Shown here: piece by piece, positions 3,630 through 13,153 of the stretch
Layout of the letters: each line of letters starts with the position of its first letter
Numbering within the stretch: the stretch's first letter is position 1
NCBI GenBank assembly: GCA_035873375.1
Contig: JAYWMQ010000013.1
Location: 1-64,000 of the forward strand
Reading direction: 5' to 3'
DNA length: 64,000 nt
Origin: Nitrospirota bacterium
GTDB lineage: Bacteria; Nitrospirota; Thermodesulfovibrionia; Thermodesulfovibrionales; JdFR-85
Notes under the pieces: generated by a model
What the model was told of the DNA's origin: nothing
The model's input: only the letters and a program-made list of their open reading frames with translations
The model's database searches: none
Translations under genes and position numbers: made by a program

Positions 3630-4511
3630 ATGCCGGCAAAGAATATACTGAAACTCGGACTTCCCAAGGGAAGCCTTCAGGAGGCAACACTGAAACTTTT
3701 CAGAAAGGCAGGCTATCATATCACCGTCTCACATCGCTCCTACTATCCTGCAATCGATGACCCGAAGATACAGCCAATGCTTATAAGGGCTCAGGAGATG
3801 GCAAGGTATGTGGACTACGGAATCCTCGATTGCGGCCTCACAGGATATGACTGGATACTTGAACAGAACGCTGATGTGAAAGAGATAGCCGAGCTTAAAT
3901 ATGCCAAGGAGGGCCTGAGACCCGTAAAATGGGTTATCGCCGTGCCTGCGGATTCAAAGATAAAGACAGTCGAAGACCTTAACGGCAAGAGGATAGCCAC
4001 TGAACTGGTTGCCTTCACCAAGCGCTACCTCAAATCCAGGAATATAAAGGCAACCGTGGATTTCTCCTGGGGCGCAACAGAGGTCAAACCCCCGCATCTT
4101 GCAGACGCCATAGTCGAGCTAACAGAAACAGGAACCTCCCTCAGGGCCAATAATCTCAGGGTGATAGAGACCATTCTGGTATCAAGCACGCGTTTTATCT
4201 CCAACAAAAAGGCATGGAAAGAGCCCTGGAAGAAGCAGAAGATGGAGAACCTGATTATGCTCCTTAGAGGGGCCCTCGAGGCCGCAGAGCGGGTAGGGCT
4301 GAAGATGAATCTCCCTGAAAAGTCCCTCAAAAAGATACTCTCTCTCCTGCCGGCCATGCACTCTCCCACTATCTCGGTACTTACTGCCAAAGACTGGTAT
4401 GATATTGACGTGGTGATAGAGGAAAGGCTTTTAAGGGACCTTATCCCCAAACTCAAAAGTGAGGGGGCCACAGGAATTGTGGAATATCAATTAAACAAGG
4501 TTATCCCCTGA
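3630..4511 (+). CDS. hisG: ATP phosphoribosyltransferase, long form (HisG)
   Basis: Catalyses the first step of histidine synthesis, joining ATP and PRPP to give phosphoribosyl-ATP; cytoplasmic hexamer. At 293 aa it is the long form. The N-terminal two-lobe catalytic part (about residues 1-215) has [15 protein letters not shown] and [14 protein letters not shown]. The PRPP-binding stretch is [16 protein letters not shown]-terminal domain of about 75 residues corresponds to the ACT-like histidine-feedback domain, so HisZ should not be needed. Start ATG is supported by AGGAAGGAG just upstream. No other his gene is in the window, so hisG stands alone here. Confidence 0.93.
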
Positions 4512-4535: not shown

Positions 4536-4722
4536 GATGTGAATTTTACCTTTACTTCCCTTTCAGAGTATGTAACAATGTAGTTAGACCAAAGTATCTG
4601 ATATTTTAGGAAGGTACCGAAGTCTATACACATTGGTTTAACCGGGGGTGCCATTTGGGGAGGGGTCTGGTTAGGTAGCACAATATCAATGCTATGACTG
4701 GTTGTTTGTAGTAAACGGGGGC
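4536..4722. repeat. 187-bp diverged direct repeat, copy 1
   Basis: Opens with GATGTGAATTTTACC and closes near GGTTGTTTGTAGT. Copy 2 starts 322 bp downstream in the same orientation. Both ends and a central block (GGTTTAACCGGGG) are strongly conserved while the middle has diverged with almost no length change. A minus-strand reading frame is open in both copies and shares the string REVKVKFTS. Origin unknown. Confidence 0.7.
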
Positions 4723-4857: not shown

Positions 4858-5044
4858 GATGTGAATTTTACCTTTACTTCCCTTCCGGATAATGTAACAA
4901 TGTAGTCAGACGAAAACAAGGGGTGTTTTTCAAAAAACACCGAAGTCTCTCCAAGTGGTTTAACCGGGGTTGCCATTGGAGGAAGGGTCTGGTAGGTACA
5001 TATTACAAGCAAAGCCCTGCCTGGTTGTTTGCAGTCAAGGGGCT
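4858..5044. repeat. 187-bp diverged direct repeat, copy 2
   Basis: Second copy of the element at 4536-4722, same orientation and virtually the same length. It contains a local inverted pair (GGTGTTTTT / AAAAACACC, 4922-4944) absent from copy 1. Its minus-strand frame continues longer (4830-5135) but resembles no family I know. Confidence 0.7.
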
Positions 5045-5187: not shown

Positions 5188-5329
5188 GTATAACTATCAT
5201 TGAATAATTGGTCTATTTCTGTATATCATTACAAATATCATGATATACAGTTAGTTATTTATAAATAACCAGCAAAAAACTTGTCAAATATCATTTTAAT
5301 CGGGTAAACTTTGAAGATATACAGAAATT
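5188..5329 (+). repeat. 142-bp leader element, copy 1 (promoter and iterons)
   Basis: Same length and about nine in ten bases identical to 7177-7318; each copy lies directly upstream of a cassette gene (35 and 15 nt away). Contents: an 11-bp perfect inverted pair (CTGTATATCAT 5219-5229 with ATGATATACAG 5240-5250), a 16-bp perfect palindrome (GTTATTTATAAATAAC 5254-5269), a promoter-like TTGTCA (5281-5286) 18 nt from TAAACT (5305-5310), and a further GATATACAG at 5316-5324. The three TATACAG-type sites bracketing the promoter look like operator iterons. Could be a mobile promoter, a MITE or a relic of an attI region. Confidence 0.7.
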
Positions 5330-5364
5330 CTATACTAACTGGTTATAAATCTAAGGATGGATAA

Positions 5365-5826
5365 ATGGCTAAATGGTGCACAATAGCTCCAATTCTTTAT
5401 TCAGATATAGAGAAAAAAATAGACATCCCTTTTGAACTTGGAAATGGTGTACGTTTAATATCATTACCAGAATGGCTCAAAGAAGATACAATGACTAAGT
5501 ATCTTGATTATAGCAAACGGGATCGATTAATTAATTATGCCAACTACGCTATAGAAGTAACATATGATGCTGATTCCTATGGGACACCTGATCCTGATTG
5601 GAAAGGGAAATACCCAAGGTCACTGCAGGAGCGGGCATTTGAATTTATCAATCTATGCAATATTGCTATCTGGATAGCAAACCCTTGTGATTTCCGATAT
5701 GAACTTATTTATGATGTTTACGAACATAATGAGAAATGGAATTTTAAGTCATACAATGAATATATTGGATTGAAACCCCATAAAAAATATATGGATTATA
5801 AATTGAATATGATAGATCTTCTTTAA
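5365..5826 (+). CDS. Cassette protein of unknown function (153 aa)
   Basis: I do not recognise a named family. The protein is soluble-looking, aromatic-rich and acidic. It begins MAKWCTIAPILY, has an LPEWLKED segment, then DPDWKGKYPRSLQERAFEFI and a hydrophobic LCNIAIWIANP stretch. The composition suggests the N-terminal part of a larger protein; 153 aa may be a shortened version fixed by cassette formation. AAGGATGG lies about 6 nt before the ATG. The stop codon overlaps the 5' core of attC A, as is usual for cassette genes. The 142-bp leader upstream supplies a possible promoter. AT-rich codon use is unlike hisG. Confidence 0.65.
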   Translation: MAKWCTIAPILYSDIEKKIDIPFELGNGVRLISLPEWLKEDTMTKYLDYSKRDRLINYANYAIEVTYDADSYGTPDPDWKGKYPRSLQERAFEFINLCNIAIWIANPCDFRYELIYDVYEHNEKWNFKSYNEYIGLKPHKKYMDYKLNMIDLL

Positions 5827-5953
5827 CAAAAAACATGCTCTTGAATGCTCAACCGCAGGACCCTTTTTGATTTTGTTTAGTTTGAGAAATGCAAATCATA
5901 TTGATTGCTTGCAACGCTATAAAGATTGAGCATCAGAGATATTCATGTTAAGT
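5821..5953 (+). repeat. Integron attC site A
   Basis: 5' core CTTTAAC (5821-5827) and 3' core GTTAAGT (5947-5953, exact GTTRRRY). The arms pair as ATGCTCAA with TTGAGCAT, then TTG-like/CA-GAG with single extra bases on the 5' side. The 3' arm runs through 5927-5953, so the following gene must start after it. Confidence 0.68.
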
Positions 5954-5955
5954 TT

Positions 5956-6411
5956 ATGAAAAACTTTAAAACACCAGAAATACTATATTACGAAACGGAC
6001 AACTCATGTGCATTATGTAGCACTAAAGGCACTAATTTGTTAACTGTTCACCATATTGATGAAAATAGAGTTAACAACACATACGACAATCTGATCGTTC
6101 TTTGTCATAATTGCCACTCGCCTTATCATGATCCAAATCACTCAGAACCAACAAAAGAAGAAATAGAGAATAGAAAGAGAAACTTAATCCATAAAACCAT
6201 TACAACTTTTGGCTTAAACGCAATGAAAATTGCGCATCGTAACAATTTTGGTGTTGTCGCATTTCCCTATATGCTCTACCATCTTTGTGAACTCGATTAC
6301 ATGAAAAAGGAAGAAGCACAAATGGGGTACGGCAAAATTGAAGATGCAACAGCAAGATTTTCTATCACTCCACATGGTAGTAATGTTTTAGAAAAATGGT
6401 TCGACGAATAA
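5956..6411 (+). CDS. HNH endonuclease (cassette gene)
   Basis: Predicted DNA nuclease of the HNH/McrA type, 151 aa from the ATG at 5956. A CALC pair near residue 20 is followed by VHHIDENRVNN (first His and Asn region) and LIVLCHNCH (second Cys pair and final His), giving CxxC...HH...N...CxxC-H as in the zinc-bound beta-beta-alpha-metal fold. The remaining C-terminal half (about 90 aa) is an alpha-helical region I cannot assign. A TTG at 5926 would extend the frame, but it lies inside the attC A arm, so 5956 is preferred. Restriction, homing or phage-defence roles are all possible. Confidence 0.8.
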   Translation: MKNFKTPEILYYETDNSCALCSTKGTNLLTVHHIDENRVNNTYDNLIVLCHNCHSPYHDPNHSEPTKEEIENRKRNLIHKTITTFGLNAMKIAHRNNFGVVAFPYMLYHLCELDYMKKEEAQMGYGKIEDATARFSITPHGSNVLEKWFDE

Positions 6412-6414
6412 ACA

Positions 6415-6517
6415 ACTTAACAAAGTGCTAAAGCCGACCCGGTAACCCCCGGCGGTTTTTCCTGAACTTGTGGTTTATTATAATCTGTGCCCGGGCCAGC
6501 TTATCACCACGTTGAGG
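6415..6517 (+). repeat. Integron attC site B
   Basis: The 5' arm ACTTAACAAAGTGCTAAAGC at 6415 pairs imperfectly with the 3' arm GCTTATCACCACGTTGAG ending 6516. Paired blocks are AAC/GTT, GTG/CAC, TAA/TTA, GC/GC and CCCGG/CCGGG. The last bases of the 3' core (GTTGAGG) deviate from GTTRRRY, possibly because an insertion sequence end begins there. Confidence 0.72.
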
Positions 6518-6597
6518 CTGTAGAAAAAGTCTTAAAAGGGCTATAATATCGCCATATTCATAGCAATAGAAACAAAGACACCGCTTAGGAGGAAGGG

Positions 6598-7104
6598 ATG
6601 GCGAGATACAAAGAGTATGACTATTCGCAGGGGAAATTCATACCGATATATTTTGACAAGCAGATCATGCCTGGGACATTTGAGTATACCCTTCATTATT
6701 TAATCGACAACGAAATAGACCTTTCAGTTTTTGACCTGCGCTATCGGAACGATGAACCCGGAGCACCAGCATACGATCCTGCAATACTGTTGAAGATAAT
6801 ACTGTATGCATATTCACGCGGGATAACGTCAAGCAGGAAGATAGCGCAGTGCTGCCGGGAGAACGTCATATTCATGGCATTGTCAGCGGATACACAGCCA
6901 CATTTTACGACAATAGCGGACTTTATCTCGACACTGGATGAGGAGATCATCCGTCTTTTTCTGGAAGTGTTAATGGTCTGCGATGAGATGGAGTTGATAG
7001 GGGGGAAGATGTTTGCGGTAGACGGGTGCAAGATGCCCATCGGTCAGGTAGGTAACGTTATTGACTACGTTGACTTACTGCTTTTCCCTTGTGGGAATCG
7101 TTGA
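6598..7104 (+). pseudogene. Truncated IS1182-type transposase
   Basis: The first 150 or so residues match the N-terminal region of IS1182/IS5-group transposases (DUF772-like): SQGKFIPIYFDKQIMPGTFEYTLHYL, YDPAILLKIILYAYSRGI, SSRKIAQCCREN, then FAVDGCKMPI carrying the first catalytic Asp. Full-length relatives are about 400-500 aa; here the frame loses similarity after that Asp and stops at 168 aa, so the second Asp and Glu are missing. AGGAGGAAGGG precedes the ATG and TATAAT lies at 6542-6547. The likely left end (GAGGCTGTAGAAAAAGTC, about 6514-6531) abuts attC B. No right end was recognised. Non-functional remnant. Confidence 0.82.
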
Positions 7105-7176
7105 GGAAGGCGTTGTTGTGAGGGGACTTTGAGGATTAAAAATAAAGGATGAAAAAAGGTAGCAGTAATCCTGGAT

Positions 7177-7318
7177 GTATAATTATCATTGAACAATTGG
7201 TCTGTTTCAGTATATCATTACAAATATCATGCTATACAGTTAGTTCATTATAAATAACCAGTAAAAAACTTGTCAAATATCATTTTAATCGGGTAAACTC
7301 AGGTGGTATACAGAAATT
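7177..7318 (+). repeat. 142-bp leader element, copy 2
   Basis: Second copy of the 5188-5329 element, identical in length. The promoter pair is kept exactly (TTGTCA 7270-7275, 18 nt, TAAACT 7294-7299). The three TATACAG-type sites are kept with one or two changes each, while the 16-bp palindrome is broken. It lies 15 nt before the HEPN gene. Confidence 0.7.
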
Positions 7319-7333
7319 GCACAATCATTTGTT

Positions 7334-7843
7334 ATGTGTAGATTATTTAAAAAGATGAGAGTCTTTAAAACGAGTGACGGATTTAAGCCAGATGATTTAT
7401 TAAAGTTTGCAATAGATCACCTGAGGTCAGCAAATTTGTTGTTTAACCGGAGTCCTATATGTTTTGATTCAGGAGGATATTTATCACACTTGGGACTGGA
7501 GTTGATTTTGAAATCGATTCTTCTCAGCAAAACAGGTGAGTTCCCGGCAATACATGATTTAAAAAGGTTATACAAAATAGCAAAAAAATCAGGATATAAG
7601 TTAGAAAAGGATGAAGAAGATATATTAAAGAAAATTAATCAGTTTTATTATCTGCGTTATGCAAATCCCCTGAGGCCTGTTGAAATAGGTGATGAGGATT
7701 GGCAGTTAATTGAAAATGCTGCAAATACGTTACTATCGTTCTTTCCAGAGAAAACACTAAAAGAATTATATGCGAGTGATTATAATGAAAAAGGTGGCAG
7801 AATACTGATGAAGAAGGAAAAGGAAATCGACAAAAACACATAA
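7334..7843 (+). CDS. HEPN domain protein (cassette gene)
   Basis: 169-aa all-helical protein resembling HEPN proteins: an N-terminal helix DDLLKFAIDHLRSANLLF, then GGYLSHLGLELILKSILL, then a PAIHDLKRLYK turn. HEPN proteins include RNases of toxin-antitoxin and abortive-infection systems. The catalytic R-x4-6-H motif is not clearly present (YLRYANP is the nearest), so it may be a non-catalytic or substrate-binding member. No nucleotidyltransferase partner is adjacent. ATG 7334 is chosen; ATG 7355 is an alternative, and neither has a strong ribosome site. The stop overlaps the 5' end of attC C. The upstream 142-bp leader is the likely promoter. Confidence 0.68.
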   Translation: MCRLFKKMRVFKTSDGFKPDDLLKFAIDHLRSANLLFNRSPICFDSGGYLSHLGLELILKSILLSKTGEFPAIHDLKRLYKIAKKSGYKLEKDEEDILKKINQFYYLRYANPLRPVEIGDEDWQLIENAANTLLSFFPEKTLKELYASDYNEKGGRILMKKEKEIDKNT

Positions 7844-7966
7844 CAACGACATGCACCTAATGCAGACCAGCGTTACTTTTTTTGTTGCAATAGTTTATGT
7901 TTTTCAAATTGTCTTTCACCTTGTTCATATTCTTCATGGTCTGCATAGGTGATGTAGGCGTTATAT
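7838..7966 (+). repeat. Integron attC site C
   Basis: Very clear attC. The 5' arm (7838-7872) and 3' arm (7933-7966) pair through ATAAC/GTTAT, ACAT/ATGT, ACCTA/TAGGT and TGCAGACCA/TGGTCTGCA, with single unpaired bases on the 5' arm. 3' core GTTATAT at 7960-7966; 129 bp in all. Confidence 0.85.
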
Positions 7967-8009
7967 TGCTCAAAATAGTACAACTTATCATCAAATGGTT
8001 TAAACCAAT

Positions 8010-11000
8010 ATGGAATTATCAAACTTAACAAAAAAAAGACGCGAGCATATTCGTTCGTGTCGTGATAATAACGATAATTCCCATGAAATAATTGCTGGCC
8101 TATATTCAGACCAATCCCATTTTATCTATGAGCTTTTACAAAATGCGGATGATGCAGGGGCATCAGAAGTCATCTTTAACTTAACTTCTGAGTCCCTTGA
8201 AGTAACTCACAATGGTACTAAATTATTCGATTCTAAAGATGTTGATTCGATAACAACCGTAGGATCATCACCGAAAAAAGACGATGTTAATTCAATTGGT
8301 ACTTTCGGAGTTGGATTTAAATCTGTTTTTGCAATAACTAAAACGCCAAGTATTCATTCTGGAAATTATCATTTTAGAATTGTAGATTTTATCGTTCCAG
8401 AAACAATAAAATCTTTAGACATTAAAGAACAATATACAGTCATATACCTCCCATTTGACCATCTTATTACATCACCCGAAGATGCTTACAAACAAATATC
8501 CAAACGATTACAAGCGTTAGAGTCTGAATCATTATTGTTTTTGAGGAACATTCAAGAGGTTCAGTGGAGTACGGAATCAGATAAGGGCCATTATTTGGCT
8601 GAAATCAAGGAAGATAAGGATAGCCTGATCTCTCAGGTTAATGAACAAGACAGCCTGAGAGATTATCTGATATTTAAAAAAATCATAGAAATAGACGGTG
8701 CCAAACTAAATATAGTAGTTGCTTATCCGTTAAATATTGATGATGGTGACACCGTCGTTCCAGTACATAATTCCAAATTATTTGTGTTTTTTCCTACAAA
8801 TGAAAGAACAGGGTTAAAGTTCTTAGTTCACGCGCCTTATAAAACCACTCCTAGCAGAGAGTCAATTCCTTTCGATGACAGTCAAAATCAGATTATTACA
8901 AATGAATTATCAATGCTGATAGCTGAGAGCATACAATCAATTAAAAATAACGGATTATTGGATGTTGGTTTCTTGACTTTGCTACCTATCGATTCAGAAA
9001 ATGAACATTCATTGTATAGTTCAGCATTCCAGAAAGTTAAAGACGCATTAACAACCAATCTACTATTACCAACTTCGGATAATGGGTATGCAAATGCAGG
9101 AAACACTTTATTAGCAAGAGAAAAAGAACTAACGACCCTATTGGGTAGTTCGGATTGTTCTGAATTATTTGAAAGAAAAACCTGGCTTAGTACGGCTATC
9201 ACGTATGACAAAACAAGAGAATTAAGGGATTATTTGACGGGGATATTGAATATTCCTGAAATTACTATGCAAAAATTCTGTACAGAAATAACTGAGGAGT
9301 TTATAAAAACAAAGCGGGACGAATGGGTTATAAACTTCTATTCAAATATAACAAAAAACAAAGCCTTATATAGAGTCGGAGGCAGCTATCAGAAAAAGGG
9401 GGTTCTACGAAAACGCCCAATTATTCGCTTGGAAGATGATTCTCATATCTGTCCAGAAGATGATTTTGGTGATTTGCAAGTATATCTACCGTCCAAGGGA
9501 ACGTCAAAGTTCAAAACTGTTAAGAGAGCTATTGTAGAGAGTGAAGAATCCATTGAGTTCTTGAAAAGTCTTGGACTCAAAGAGCCAAATAATATAGCTG
9601 AGATTAAAGAGTTCATTATCCCGAAATACCAAAGTAGCTATATTGGAAAGGATGAATATATAGATGACTTCGAGCGAGTACTAACAATTTGGATGCAGTC
9701 TGATGAGTACCGAAAAAAAGAGGTTGCGGATTTACTAAAGCAATCGCAATTTGTACGGTGCATAAATCAAAGCAAGTCAATCTTTTATCAAAAAGCCGAT
9801 GATGTGTATTTTTGCACGGATAAGTTATTAGCTTGGTATGAGGGTAATCTAGATGACAATATTTATTTCCTCGAGGTGGGGATTCAGTTAACAGAAAATA
9901 GCAGGAAGTTTATAGAAAGCCTAGGTGTTCGATATGATATAAAAATGTCTGGTATCAACGACATTAGGGTTAGTAATTATGGTTGGTACGAAAGAAGTGT
10001 TAATGGGTTTAATCCAGGCTTTGGTATACATGGGTTAGAATTTACCCTGAAAAGCATAACTGCTGAAAAGTCTCTATTCTTGTGGTCGGTATTGCTTAAA
10101 AATACCAATAAGCTGAAGGGTTATATAGAAACAACATCCAACCAAAATCACCCATATAATAAGGGTGAAGAGAAGACATCAAAGGCTATGGATGCGTTAA
10201 TTAAAAGTCCGTGGCTATATGACAAGGAAGGCAAATTAATATTTTTACCTATTGATCAAGTAGCGTTTGATGATCTGAGCGATGATTATCAAAAAGAAGA
10301 TAATAATATCGAAAGGCTCGTTAAAGCACTCGGATTTAAGCTGGATGAAATTGTAGAATTCGAAGAAAAAACTGGTAAAAAAGTTGTATCCATAGAAGAT
10401 TTTGAACTTCTTCGAAAAATCAAGAAAGATCCTAATGATGCTGAAGAAGAGAAGGATGAGGACGATAACTGGATACCAGAAACAGATCCTGATGATGCAA
10501 ACATCATTGAAGACGAATCCGATTTTAAAAGGCACATACAAGAAGATTTATCTGGCCAAGATGCAAAAGTAAATGCTGGTATTGATGATACAGATAATGA
10601 TAATGGTGAGAAAGAAAGGGCAAATGGTAGCAATTCTGACAAACCAAAAGATAGTAAAGCAATAGGTGCTTGGGGAGAATCTATCGCCAATAGATACTTA
10701 GTAAAAAAGTATTCAAAGAACGAAGTGGTTTGGCTAAATGAAAGCGGGAATGTCGGAAAGGGCTACGATTTTGTAATAAGAGAGAATGGTGAAGATATTG
10801 CCTACTATGAAGTCAAAAGCAAAACTGACAAGGCACCACAACTATTTCTAATATCTGGTACACAGTGGGGTTGGGCGAAAAACTTACATAACGCAAATAA
10901 GGGAGGCATGTATAAAATTTTGTTAATTTCCAATGCAGGAAAAAAAGAACCAAAAATCAGAGAAATAATAAACCCTGTTGAACTTTGGAATGCTGGGAAA

Positions 11001-11033
11001 TTATACGCAGACCCCGTTAATATTGAACTATAG
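8010..11033 (+). CDS. GHKL ATPase (sacsin-like) with C-terminal DUF3883/PD-(D/E)XK-like domain
   Basis: 1007-aa cassette protein. The N-terminus is a GHKL/histidine-kinase-like ATPase of the sacsin/NOV type: N-box ELLQNADDA at residues 41-49 (Glu41 and Asn45 as Mg-ATP ligands) and lid GTFGVGFKS at about 97-105. The middle 600 residues are unassigned. A strongly acidic linker lies near 810-860. The C-terminal 125 residues match the DUF3883/NO VEIN C-terminal type, with GESIANRYL, Asp920 in GYDFV and Glu934-x-Lys936 in YYEVKSK, the D...ExK spacing of PD-(D/E)XK nucleases. Relatives are frequent in phage-defence islands. It occupies a cassette of its own between attC C and D and is unusually large for a cassette. 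Nuclease activity and defence role are inferences. Confidence 0.82.
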   Translation: MELSNLTKKRREHIRSCRDNNDNSHEIIAGLYSDQSHFIYELLQNADDAGASEVIFNLTSESLEVTHNGTKLFDSKDVDSITTVGSSPKKDDVNSIGTFGVGFKSVFAITKTPSIHSGNYHFRIVDFIVPETIKSLDIKEQYTVIYLPFDHLITSPEDAYKQISKRLQALESESLLFLRNIQEVQWSTESDKGHYLAEIKEDKDSLISQVNEQDSLRDYLIFKKIIEIDGAKLNIVVAYPLNIDDGDTVVPVHNSKLFVFFPTNERTGLKFLVHAPYKTTPSRESIPFDDSQNQIITNELSMLIAESIQSIKNNGLLDVGFLTLLPIDSENEHSLYSSAFQKVKDALTTNLLLPTSDNGYANAGNTLLAREKELTTLLGSSDCSELFERKTWLSTAITYDKTRELRDYLTGILNIPEITMQKFCTEITEEFIKTKRDEWVINFYSNITKNKALYRVGGSYQKKGVLRKRPIIRLEDDSHICPEDDFGDLQVYLPSKGTSKFKTVKRAIVESEESIEFLKSLGLKEPNNIAEIKEFIIPKYQSSYIGKDEYIDDFERVLTIWMQSDEYRKKEVADLLKQSQFVRCINQSKSIFYQKADDVYFCTDKLLAWYEGNLDDNIYFLEVGIQLTENSRKFIESLGVRYDIKMSGINDIRVSNYGWYERSVNGFNPGFGIHGLEFTLKSITAEKSLFLWSVLLKNTNKLKGYIETTSNQNHPYNKGEEKTSKAMDALIKSPWLYDKEGKLIFLPIDQVAFDDLSDDYQKEDNNIERLVKALGFKLDEIVEFEEKTGKKVVSIEDFELLRKIKKDPNDAEEEKDEDDNWIPETDPDDANIIEDESDFKRHIQEDLSGQDAKVNAGIDDTDNDNGEKERANGSNSDKPKDSKAIGAWGESIANRYLVKKYSKNEVVWLNESGNVGKGYDFVIRENGEDIAYYEVKSKTDKAPQLFLISGTQWGWAKNLHNANKGGMYKILLISNAGKKEPKIREIINPVELWNAGKLYADPVNIEL

Positions 11034-11047
11034 CAGTTGAAAACGCA

Positions 11048-11159
11048 ATATAACAAGGTGCTACACTCGGAGTATCCACTGTTTGCTCTGCGCTCCGCGC
11101 CTTACAACCAGCGGATGGAACAGATGCCCTTTGGGCACTCCTCATCAGCGGCGTTAGAA
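11048..11159 (+). repeat. Integron attC site D
   Basis: 5' core ATATAAC (11048-11054), 3' core GTTAGAA (11153-11159). Arms pair in blocks TAAC/GTTA, GCT/AGC, GGAGT/ACTCC and CCA/TGG with unpaired bases. Pairing is weaker than in sites B, C and E. Confidence 0.6.
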
Positions 11160-11189
11160 GGCTGAACAAGAATAGAAAAGGAGGTGTAT

Positions 11190-11561
11190 ATGGGATTTCT
11201 CAGCAATTTATTTGGCGATGAAAATTTCGCAGGCCAGATTTCTGATAGGGGAGTTAAGTATTTATTAGCAAATTTAGATTCCGTCGATACTGAAGTCCTT
11301 AACTTTCTTGAACCCACTCATCATATTTGGCCAGAGCAACAGATGTTTATTCCTAACCTTATGGGTGAATTCAGAGACTCGAAAGTTGGGATTGTACACG
11401 GTCAAGGGGGAGGCCATGCATTCATACGCATGAATGCGCTCAAATCGATAGCTCAAGAGCATATCGGTGAAATTTCAAATTACTGTGAGTTAGTCAAGTT
11501 ATTTCGTGCTTCTGGTCTGGAGGTAAAACGAATTAAGTATTTCCGAGTTGAGGAACATTAA
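11190..11561 (+). CDS. Small cassette protein of unknown function (123 aa)
   Basis: Not recognised. The ATG at 11190 is preceded at 5 nt by AAAGGAGG, a strong ribosome site; a GTG 6 nt upstream overlaps that site and is rejected. The protein begins MGFLSNLFGDENFAG, has a conserved-looking VDTEVLNFLEPTHHIWPEQQ segment and a short glycine-rich GQGGGHAFIRM stretch. It carries no signal peptide, membrane segment or cysteine pair. It is single and complete between attC D and attC E, so it is probably a stand-alone function. Confidence 0.7.
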   Translation: MGFLSNLFGDENFAGQISDRGVKYLLANLDSVDTEVLNFLEPTHHIWPEQQMFIPNLMGEFRDSKVGIVHGQGGGHAFIRMNALKSIAQEHIGEISNYCELVKLFRASGLEVKRIKYFRVEEH

Positions 11562-11594
11562 CGGTCACCCACTTTTAAAGTTGCGAACGACGCC

Positions 11595-11699
11595 TTCTAA
11601 CAAAGCAAATCAACATGGATGGACAAAAGCGTCGCAATTTTTGCAAAAAGACGCAAAAATTCCGCCACTTTCGTCCACCAGTTATTTGCAACGTTATGC
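11595..11699 (+). repeat. Integron attC site E
   Basis: Textbook attC of 105 bp. The 5' arm (TTCTAAC from 11595) pairs with the 3' arm ending GTTATGC (11693-11699) through TAAC/GTTA, GCAAAT/ATTTGC, AAC/GTT, TGG/CCA, TGGAC/GTCCA and AAAG/CTTT. Three single bases are left unpaired on one side. Confidence 0.88.
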
Positions 11700-11719
11700 T
11701 TTATCAATAAGGAGGAAAC

Positions 11720-12220
11720 ATGATTAAATTTCTACAAGCCTTAGTTGTAATTGGTTTTTCTTTTTTTATCTTCGCTTGTGGTGGTGGTGATGATGGCGGT
11801 GGCGGTGGTGGTACAACATTTAATAAAGTCTCTTTCCCTCTCACCGTCAAAGCGCAAATTGATGGTCGAAGCCAACTTATGTTAAGTGGAAGTTTGATTT
11901 GGTGGCACCACATTGACTGGGAACCTCCTGGCCTTTGGGGAGAAGAGCAACCAACTTTTTTAAACGAAGAAAAATGGTATCCAGTATGGCCTGAAGGAAT
12001 TCTTACTGATTGCGATTGTGATTCATCCAAGATAGACGCATTAGCAACACCATTGCGCGCTGATGCAACGATGATATCTCTTAATGTTATTGCAGGGAGG
12101 GGGGAAGTTACGATTGTTGAGCAACCTAATCAAAATAATGATTACACAGCCACAATTGAGTTCGACGATAATAATTCAGTGGGCCCAGACTGGTACGAAA
12201 TAATAATTTCTTATAACTAA
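11720..12220 (+). CDS. Cassette-encoded lipoprotein with glycine-rich linker
   Basis: 166-aa predicted lipoprotein of unknown function. A basic start (MIKF) and hydrophobic segment lead to a lipobox-like FIFAC with Cys20, followed by a GGGDDGGGGGG linker. The mature part is rich in Trp and acidic residues and looks like a beta-sandwich exposed outside the membrane; no family is recognised. AAGGAGGAAAC precedes the ATG at normal spacing. The GGTGGT-type repeat coding the linker (about 11778-11812) may be prone to slippage. It is the last cassette gene; a perfect 5' attC core (ACTTAAC, 12222-12228) follows, but I could not find a matching 3' core. Confidence 0.78.
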   Translation: MIKFLQALVVIGFSFFIFACGGGDDGGGGGGTTFNKVSFPLTVKAQIDGRSQLMLSGSLIWWHHIDWEPPGLWGEEQPTFLNEEKWYPVWPEGILTDCDCDSSKIDALATPLRADATMISLNVIAGRGEVTIVEQPNQNNDYTATIEFDDNNSVGPDWYEIIISYN

Positions 12221-12385
12221 TACTTAACTGCATAATTTGATGTTTCATGTTTTGCTAATAAAATATAACGGAGAGCTACCTGAGGGACATACTATGCATA
12301 ACTATTGAAGGGCAAAAAAATAATGTTGATAAAATTGCAGGATTTATAACTCCTCAATTTTCATTACTATCTTGAGTTTTGAACT

Positions 12386-13153
12386 TCAGACAGACAAGAC
12401 CTCTGTTGCCATGTATCGACTGGCAGTATAGAGGGTGAGGTTCGGGTCTACAATCCTGCGGTGTGTCTGAAGTGCCAGGTCAGGGACATTGTTATTCTCC
12501 GAAAGATGCACCAGACAGGCCCATTTCAGACGCTCTGTATACGAGTTACAAAGCAGTTCAGCGGCCTCAATATTTGAGAGGTGGCCGCCCGGCCCCTTTA
12601 TTCGCGTCTTCAGGAATGCAGGATAGGGGCCGCTTGCAAGCATGGCAGGGTCATAATTGCTTTCAATAAAGACCGCATCAAGGGATGCAACAACACGGTC
12701 AAGCCCTTCAAAGAGGTGTCCGAGATCGGCAAGGATACCGAGACGCTTATTGTTCGAGATGACGACAAATGCAGCACCATCCACACCATCATGCGGCGTA
12801 GGAATCGCCTGGACAGACACGTTTCCAAACTGAAGCATCCCGTCTGACTGAAAGTAACGGATATCCTTTAGCCTGCCAAGCCCGCGCTTTTCAGTTGCAG
12901 CTTTCAGGGTCTTTGGCGTGACATAAAGGGGCAGACCATACTTCCGCTGGTACACACCGGCATGGCAGATATGATCACTGTGGTCATGGGATATTATCAC
13001 GGCATCGACCTGCCGGATATCGCGTCCGTGTGCGGCGAGTCTCTGTTCTGCCTGTATGCCGCTGATTCCTGCATCAAAAAGAAGCTTTATCCCGCAGGTC
13101 TCAACATAAAAACAGTTACCCTTGCTGCCCGATTGAAGTGAGATTGTATTCAT
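12386..13153 (-). CDS. MBL-fold metallo-hydrolase (YycJ/WalJ-like)
   Basis: 255-aa metallo-beta-lactamase-fold hydrolase. The zinc motif HDHSDH lies near residues 56-61 and further metal ligands in PTPHDG, ADLGH and GPGGHLSN. N-terminal SLQSGSKGNCFYVE is typical of the YycJ/WalJ subfamily, whose members are thought to act on DNA or nucleotides; the B. subtilis gene affects cell division and mutation rate. The exact substrate is unknown. It is transcribed away from the CARDB lipoprotein side, and its 3' end marks the right boundary of the foreign block. Codon use is back to the chromosomal type. Confidence 0.85.
   Translation of the reverse strand: MNTISLQSGSKGNCFYVETCGIKLLFDAGISGIQAEQRLAAHGRDIRQVDAVIISHDHSDHICHAGVYQRKYGLPLYVTPKTLKAATEKRGLGRLKDIRYFQSDGMLQFGNVSVQAIPTPHDGVDGAAFVVISNNKRLGILADLGHLFEGLDRVVASLDAVFIESNYDPAMLASGPYPAFLKTRIKGPGGHLSNIEAAELLCNSYTERLKWACLVHLSENNNVPDLALQTHRRIVDPNLTLYTASRYMATEVLSV

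Follow-up and report, generated by a model that had tools for sequence, protein, structure and literature searches.

The interval between hisG and a gene for a metallo-beta-lactamase-fold protein on contig JAYWMQ010000013.1 of a Nitrospirota bacterium (assembly GCA_035873375.1) very probably holds two integrons in tandem that have lost the integrase gene intI. It lies in a stretch of 64,000 nucleotides (nt), hereafter the window. Each of the two repeat copies at this locus is read as the remnant of a deleted integrase gene, namely its 5' end and promoter region, together with a putative Pc-like promoter and a putative attI site, and gene cassettes follow behind. The genome (G000; the window is its contig C13) comprises 2.67 Mb in 63 contigs with 99.3% completeness, and 230 genomes of the class and six of the genus were used for comparison. 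The attC-type sites, the intI stubs, the promoter matches, the copy number and the lack of an intact intI are direct observations; judged from sequence, the whole appears to be a set of integrase-stripped integrons, not one attC-only cluster. Coordinates are collected in Table 1.

Sites A, B, C and E are four strong attC-type sites and D is a weaker one. All five have RYYYAAC- and GTTRRRY-like boxes, and their bottom strand folds into paired R boxes, a gap and paired L boxes with extra-helical bases on the L'' side, which is the arrangement of attC, less pronounced in D. For the shuffle counts in Table 1, the boxes were kept fixed and the arms were shuffled 400 times per site. Among real box pairs elsewhere in the window, 0 of 44 were at least as stable as A, B, C or E and 6 of 44 as D; the sites were picked by a scan and by eye, and neither set of counts is corrected for this search. 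At a score of at least 40, the scan gave five matches in the array, with about 0.1 expected per 7.3 kb of shuffled array sequence, and four in the remaining ~57 kb of the plus strand. The five are A, B, C, the interior of E and one false match within the TmtA gene. The R'' boxes overlap stop codons or closely follow them, as ordinary cassettes do, and A ends 2 nt ahead of the HNH start codon. With at least two attC sites and no intI nearby, the locus has the composition of a cluster of attC sites lacking integron-integrases (CALIN).

The two modules were recognized as a direct repeat (5188-5346 and 7177-7335) of one family that is dispersed through the genome. In module 2, promoter matches run divergently in both directions, as is usual at the head of an integron. 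The Pc-like promoters match at 9 of 12 positions, and matches of this kind occur often in the region, with 40 found where 27.6 were expected. Since the module would join the 5' end of intI to attI, the attI site is predicted to stand beside the position of intI, as in a complete integron. The 159-nt repeat was also considered as an attC site or as a promoter cassette, and both were dropped; an R'' box is absent, and the sequence runs on into intI.

A relation of the module to intI is visible in the genome G152, where a module on contig C108 has a 108-codon IntI N-terminus on the other strand (E 1e-28) and the window modules share 91-97% identity with its DNA up to and including the start codon (ATGATAATTATACATC). 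Eight G000 copies were used to build a model, R1, that covers the module promoter and right end; in the 230 class genomes it gave 109 matches at E<=0.05 (row sum). In 52 modules drawn from these, a divergent IntI N-terminus was found upstream at E<1e-8 in nine, namely those of G006 and G004, five copies of G152 and one each of G186 and G193; the downstream control gave 0 of 52 at this level and one at E 0.018. Two R1 matches lie within 0.7 kb of an intI match, both upstream and pointing away, and the chance of two such cases is roughly estimated at ~0.02. One stands beside a 456-aa IntI in G006, and the other beside a broken intI in G004, with cassettes and one attC site following. The core CTAATAACTGGTTATAC lies upstream of the gene for the intact IntI (470 aa) of G152. 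In G000 itself, contig C9 ends in an IntI stub of 56 to at least 60 codons (E 7e-11), and the modules on C44, C9 and C42 begin with MIDISPDIRTRFNALLVKTEE, MLNIPSEISTRFYTLCVMG and MTSIPPELYAPFNVLPV, respectively; as few as 1, 2 and 5 of 6619 ATG translations, the stub itself counted, score as high as these three. In a pattern search for attI, matches with at most two mismatches occurred in 13 of 51 regions upstream of intI (1.2 when shuffled, 4 on the opposite strand); one pattern came from the same loci, and the result is therefore not relied on.

R1 copies in G000 number 16 at E<=0.01 and 18 at E<=0.05, on 14 contigs, and some relatives have several to 12. A same-strand open reading frame (ORF) starts within 200 nt of 16 of the 18 copies, and attC sites follow modules on six of the 14 contigs (C13, C19, C43, C44, C50 and C56). 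On C21 lies another array, whose attI-like end (TTCGTGCATTAATTGTTGGGT) is similar to the one that is linked to intI in G019 and G108 (TTCGTATAGTAATTGTTARG). A second, diverged module subtype with a TTGTAA promoter was seen at L097:9592-9757 and L212:2892-2950 (contigs C50 and C56), and on C56 it ends with ACATACTAACTTGTTATAC. The stubs span ~4 and ~10 codons in the window, 17-20 on C42, C9 and C44, and 61 and 108 in G152; since their lengths differ, separate truncations or erosion of intI are suggested, and not one fixed mobile unit. Modules that formed a unit like a miniature inverted-repeat transposable element, by which a transposase spread attI and promoter and which cassettes entered later, would explain the many copies of similar length with partly paired arms. 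Such an origin is unlikely, because the left ends stop at different intI codons and the gene tail beside two copies also occurs at other loci, as would be expected of segment duplication.

An intact intI, which a complete integron would have, was not found above the TIGR02249 cut-off in the 2.67 Mb of G000. A cognate IntI query detected there only the C9 stub and two genes that we call Xer-like, both without model region 185-243. In 74 of the 230 class genomes, IntI exceeds the family cut-off, and many of the frames, at 400-500 aa, are longer than the 315-position model. Ordinary integrons with intact intI may exist on contigs that were lost or left unbinned, as the 63 contigs and the position of several modules and of the C9 stub near contig ends would allow. 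We regard this assembly effect as quite improbable: the genome is 99.3% complete, intact IntI was found in none of the six genus genomes with either the family model or the cognate query, and the chromosomal surroundings of the modules differ across the 14 contigs, so that one integron cannot account for them. It is least credible that an integrase encoded elsewhere made an ordinary CALIN here by off-target (attG-like) insertion, beside an unrelated dispersed promoter repeat holding a chance GTT site, since the repeat, dispersed as it is, continues into intI codons and lies upstream of real intI in relatives, although CALINs and attG insertion are known (PMC8618304, PMC12444791, PMC12901181; these and PMC9024848 are cited throughout from excerpts).

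Several results weigh against two integrase-less integrons at this locus. Site D is weak, and it is the only one detected in the window (18.2 bits, E 0.022, with a different left box) by an attC covariance model, R2, which misses A, B, C and E. The 19 sites used to build this model, all outside the window, lie either close to relatives' IntI genes or on further G000 contigs, and they covary strongly (0.452, against 0.142 shuffled). R2 also fails to recover two long-loop sites of its own training set, those on C50 and C43; it is therefore blind to long loops, and its misses say little on long-loop sites. The window stubs have just ~4 and ~10 codons and are identified through the DNA similarity to G152. 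Both R1 matches that are linked to intI have low significance (E 7e-4 and 0.003). A weight matrix of the module's last 19 nt gave no clear excess in the 500 nt upstream of relatives' intI, a result that is uninformative because several copies in the matrix were out of register and the relatives lack one base. Trusted attC sites were not found on the other 8 of 14 module contigs, which weighs against every copy heading an array, and in an assembly of 63 contigs an intI outside it is possible.

In the proposed origin, the minus strand of each module would carry the first codons of the lost intI and its promoter region, and the plus strand a forward promoter fitting Pc, followed by attI. Behind the first attI would come a gene of no known family and the HNH gene, ending in attC sites, and behind the second the HEPN gene, the Tiamat-like ATPase gene, another gene of no known family and the lipoprotein-like gene. 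The cassettes would have entered through IntI-catalysed attC x attI recombination while the integrase existed; they would be transcribed from Pc, and their products may act against phage. The ancestral integron probably multiplied, its modules spreading by duplication and recombination, with module 2 carrying the gene tail of another locus, and the integrase genes would have been deleted to different points.

Table 1. Features of the cassette region and its neighbours in the window
Feature	Position	Strand	Basis and remarks
hisG	3630-4511		left neighbour of array region
attI module 1	5188-5346	+	repeat search; R1 match 5278-5346; 96-97% identity to G152 C108 module
Module 1 intI 5' stub		-	~4 codons, left end
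Module 1 Pc-like promoter	5281-5310	+	TTGTCA-18-TAAACT, forward
Module 1 putative attI core			right end, ...CTATACTAACTG|GTTAT
Cassette 1 gene	5365-5826	+	153 aa; no family match
attC A	5821-5953	+	bottom-strand fold, arms; 0/400 shuffles as stable
Cassette 2 gene, HNH endonuclease-type	5956-6411	+	151 aa; PF01844 E 2.2e-5; ZorE HNH region
attC B	6415-6517	+	bottom-strand fold, arms; 0/400 shuffles as stable
IS1182-family transposase fragment	6598-7104	+	not a cassette; NF033551 positions 32-145 of 488; DUF772
Gene tail	7093-7139	+	precedes C50 and G046 modules; 87% over 47 nt; came with module 2
attI module 2	7161-7335	+	repeat search, R1 match, similarity to G152 C108 module, promoter search, stub comparison
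Module 2 intI stub	start codon near 7189	-	MIIIHPGLLL (~10 codons)
Module 2 minus-strand promoter	7276-7247	-	TTGACA-18-TATAAT (perfect), towards stub
Module 2 Pc-like promoter	7270-7299	+	TTGTCA-18-TAAACT, towards cassettes
Module 2 putative attI end			...AATCATTTGTTAT
Cassette 3 gene, HEPN domain	7355-7843	+	162 aa; PF05168 E 6e-9
attC C	7838-7966	+	scan, bottom-strand fold, arms; 0/400 shuffles as stable
Cassette 4 gene, Tiamat (TmtA)-like	8010-11033	+	1007 aa; TmtA E 1.3e-94; PF25794, PF13020
attC D	11048-11159	+	fold; weakest arm stability; 12/400 shuffles; R2 18.2 bits over 11102-11159
Cassette 5 gene	11190-11561	+	123 aa; no family match
attC E	11595-11699	+	scan (interior), bottom-strand fold, arms; 0/400 shuffles as stable
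Last cassette gene, lipoprotein-like (our reading)	11720-12220	+	166 aa; no complete attC after it
Metallo-beta-lactamase-fold gene	12386-13153		right neighbour of array region

Seven ORFs, all on the plus strand, lie between hisG and the metallo-beta-lactamase-fold gene, and the GC content falls from ~0.48 to 0.32-0.36 across much of this interval. A first-pass annotation of the window had proposed an orphan cassette array beside hisG, and the attC folds and shuffles, the same-strand genes, the AT shift and the genome-wide intI search that it recommended, which returned none intact, bear this out. Its five attC-type sites stand as far as bottom-strand folds and arm shuffles go, with D weak and our own covariance model finding D alone. 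The single array that it drew at 5188-12220 is real but consists of two in tandem. In both, an intI 5' stub and a forward Pc-like promoter accompany a putative attI, and their heads belong to a family of ~18. The array does not start with attC at 5188, where an attI module begins, nor is all of the stretch made of cassettes, since 6518-7160 holds the fragment of an IS1182-family transposase and, from another locus, part of the end of a gene that we take to be murQ-like. The same gene order without the repeats, which had been named as contrary evidence, was not seen in relatives, and the cassette proteins had no match at 36 hisG loci and six genus loci.

Module 2 is preceded by the same gene tail as the modules of C50 and G046, and its attI end (GCACAATCATTTGTTAT) is identical to that of G046; therefore, its head was probably copied from a locus of this type. 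In G045, hisG is followed by a module, a different sequence after attI and then the contig end, which would be consistent with a turnover of cassettes at one common site. In G046-G049, ligA is retained together with one or both of its two neighbours, and the array and hisG are not there; the hisG neighbourhood is thus too little conserved for an empty-site comparison. The HisG protein of the window is 99% identical to that of 'Bacterium BMS3Bbin07', followed by matches to Nitrospirae/Thermodesulfovibrio genomes. A second direct repeat (4536-4719 and 4858-5042, at most 90% alike over the best stretch) lies between hisG and module 1 and also matches C47, C5, C43 and C3 of G000. A short repeat at 7049-7080 (GTTATTGACTACGTTGACT...), with the look, by eye, of a repetitive extragenic palindromic element, recurs near cassette arrays in L097, L098 and L170. 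Another dispersed repeat, at 12284-12350 (ACTATGCATAACTATTGAAGGGCAAAAAAATAATGTTGATA...), is found just past the last cassette gene, in L170 and partly in L098; it may have replaced the attC of the last cassette. An Rfam search at gathering scores gave a tRNA as the sole match.

The cassette 4 protein has a sacsin/HSP90-type ATPase N-terminus and a NOV_C C-terminus, and its residues 5-701 match the TmtA model PDLC03972 (PADLOC) at E 1.3e-94. Tiamat (TmtA) is a single-gene anti-phage system. The sequence likeness covers most of the cassette 4 protein and includes the HSP90-type ATPase domain, whereas the protein has 1007 aa and the models 1302-1782. Other module-led arrays of G000 carry Shedu SduA, a PDC-S02 candidate, CoiA nuclease, PemK/MazF, a methyltransferase, two TIR proteins (one CAP12-type) and a weak HEPN match, and the G046 array carries HATPase, Mrr-like and DNA methylase genes. 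Among 20 proteins of other arrays, 11 had a meaningful Pfam match and nine had none or a trivial one, and so the phage-defence library that we infer for the cassette set draws on part of the cargo. The nuclease- and HEPN-rich content noted in the first pass as consistent with phage defence is thus upheld at family level (HNH E 2.2e-5, HEPN E 6e-9, TmtA E 1.3e-94), which is not functional support.

The locus bears directly on the origin of enzyme-less arrays, for which off-target insertion, intI loss and rearrangement have been distinguished (PMC8618304). Here the intI-loss route would have left a readable trace, an intI 5' stub ahead of attI in a multicopy head, and 'attC-only' clusters can accordingly retain attI and promoter. 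Outside class 1 integrons, attI sites are described as poorly known (PMC9024848). The attI family may serve as a model with which other genomes can be searched for heads of this kind. Its cargo, from a deep-branching bacterium of a little-studied phylum, further ties integrons to phage defence. Tentatively, many attI-promoter platforms might be served in trans by one integrase, possibly as in G152 with its intact IntI and 12 modules, in a decentralised integron that deals out defence cassettes; G000 would then be a frozen state in which the integrase was lost or is supplied intermittently, a possibility to which we give limited credence. A trans-acting integrase becomes testable in G152-like strains.

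Because CALINs, intI loss, trans mobilisation and integron-borne defence genes have already been described (PMC9024848, PMC12901181, PMC12444791, PMC8618304), the locus varies a known integron theme; multicopy attI heads with intI stubs were not described in the literature listings and the excerpts of these papers that were searched. Like CALINs (PMC9024848, PMC8618304), it is chromosomal and has several attC sites and cassettes with accessory genes and without intI; unlike them, it keeps a putative attI, a Pc-like promoter and an intI 5' stub, and the head family has ~18 members in one genome. Integrase loss and several cassette clusters per genome are shared with the Xanthomonas CALINs away from ilvD, for which the excerpt of PMC12444791 describes neither attI nor an intI stub. 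Delta-attI-type cassettes of mobile integrons (PMC12901181) likewise place attI pieces away from the intI-proximal position; these are short pieces replacing attC in a mobile integron, whereas putative attI-plus-promoter heads stand at separate chromosomal loci here. With a complete chromosomal integron (intI-attI-Pc-attC), the locus shares the head and cassette layout, the polarity and, in module 2, the divergent integrase promoter, and it differs from it in the absence of the integrase gene; the single long array also gives way to many loci that each hold one to a few cassettes.

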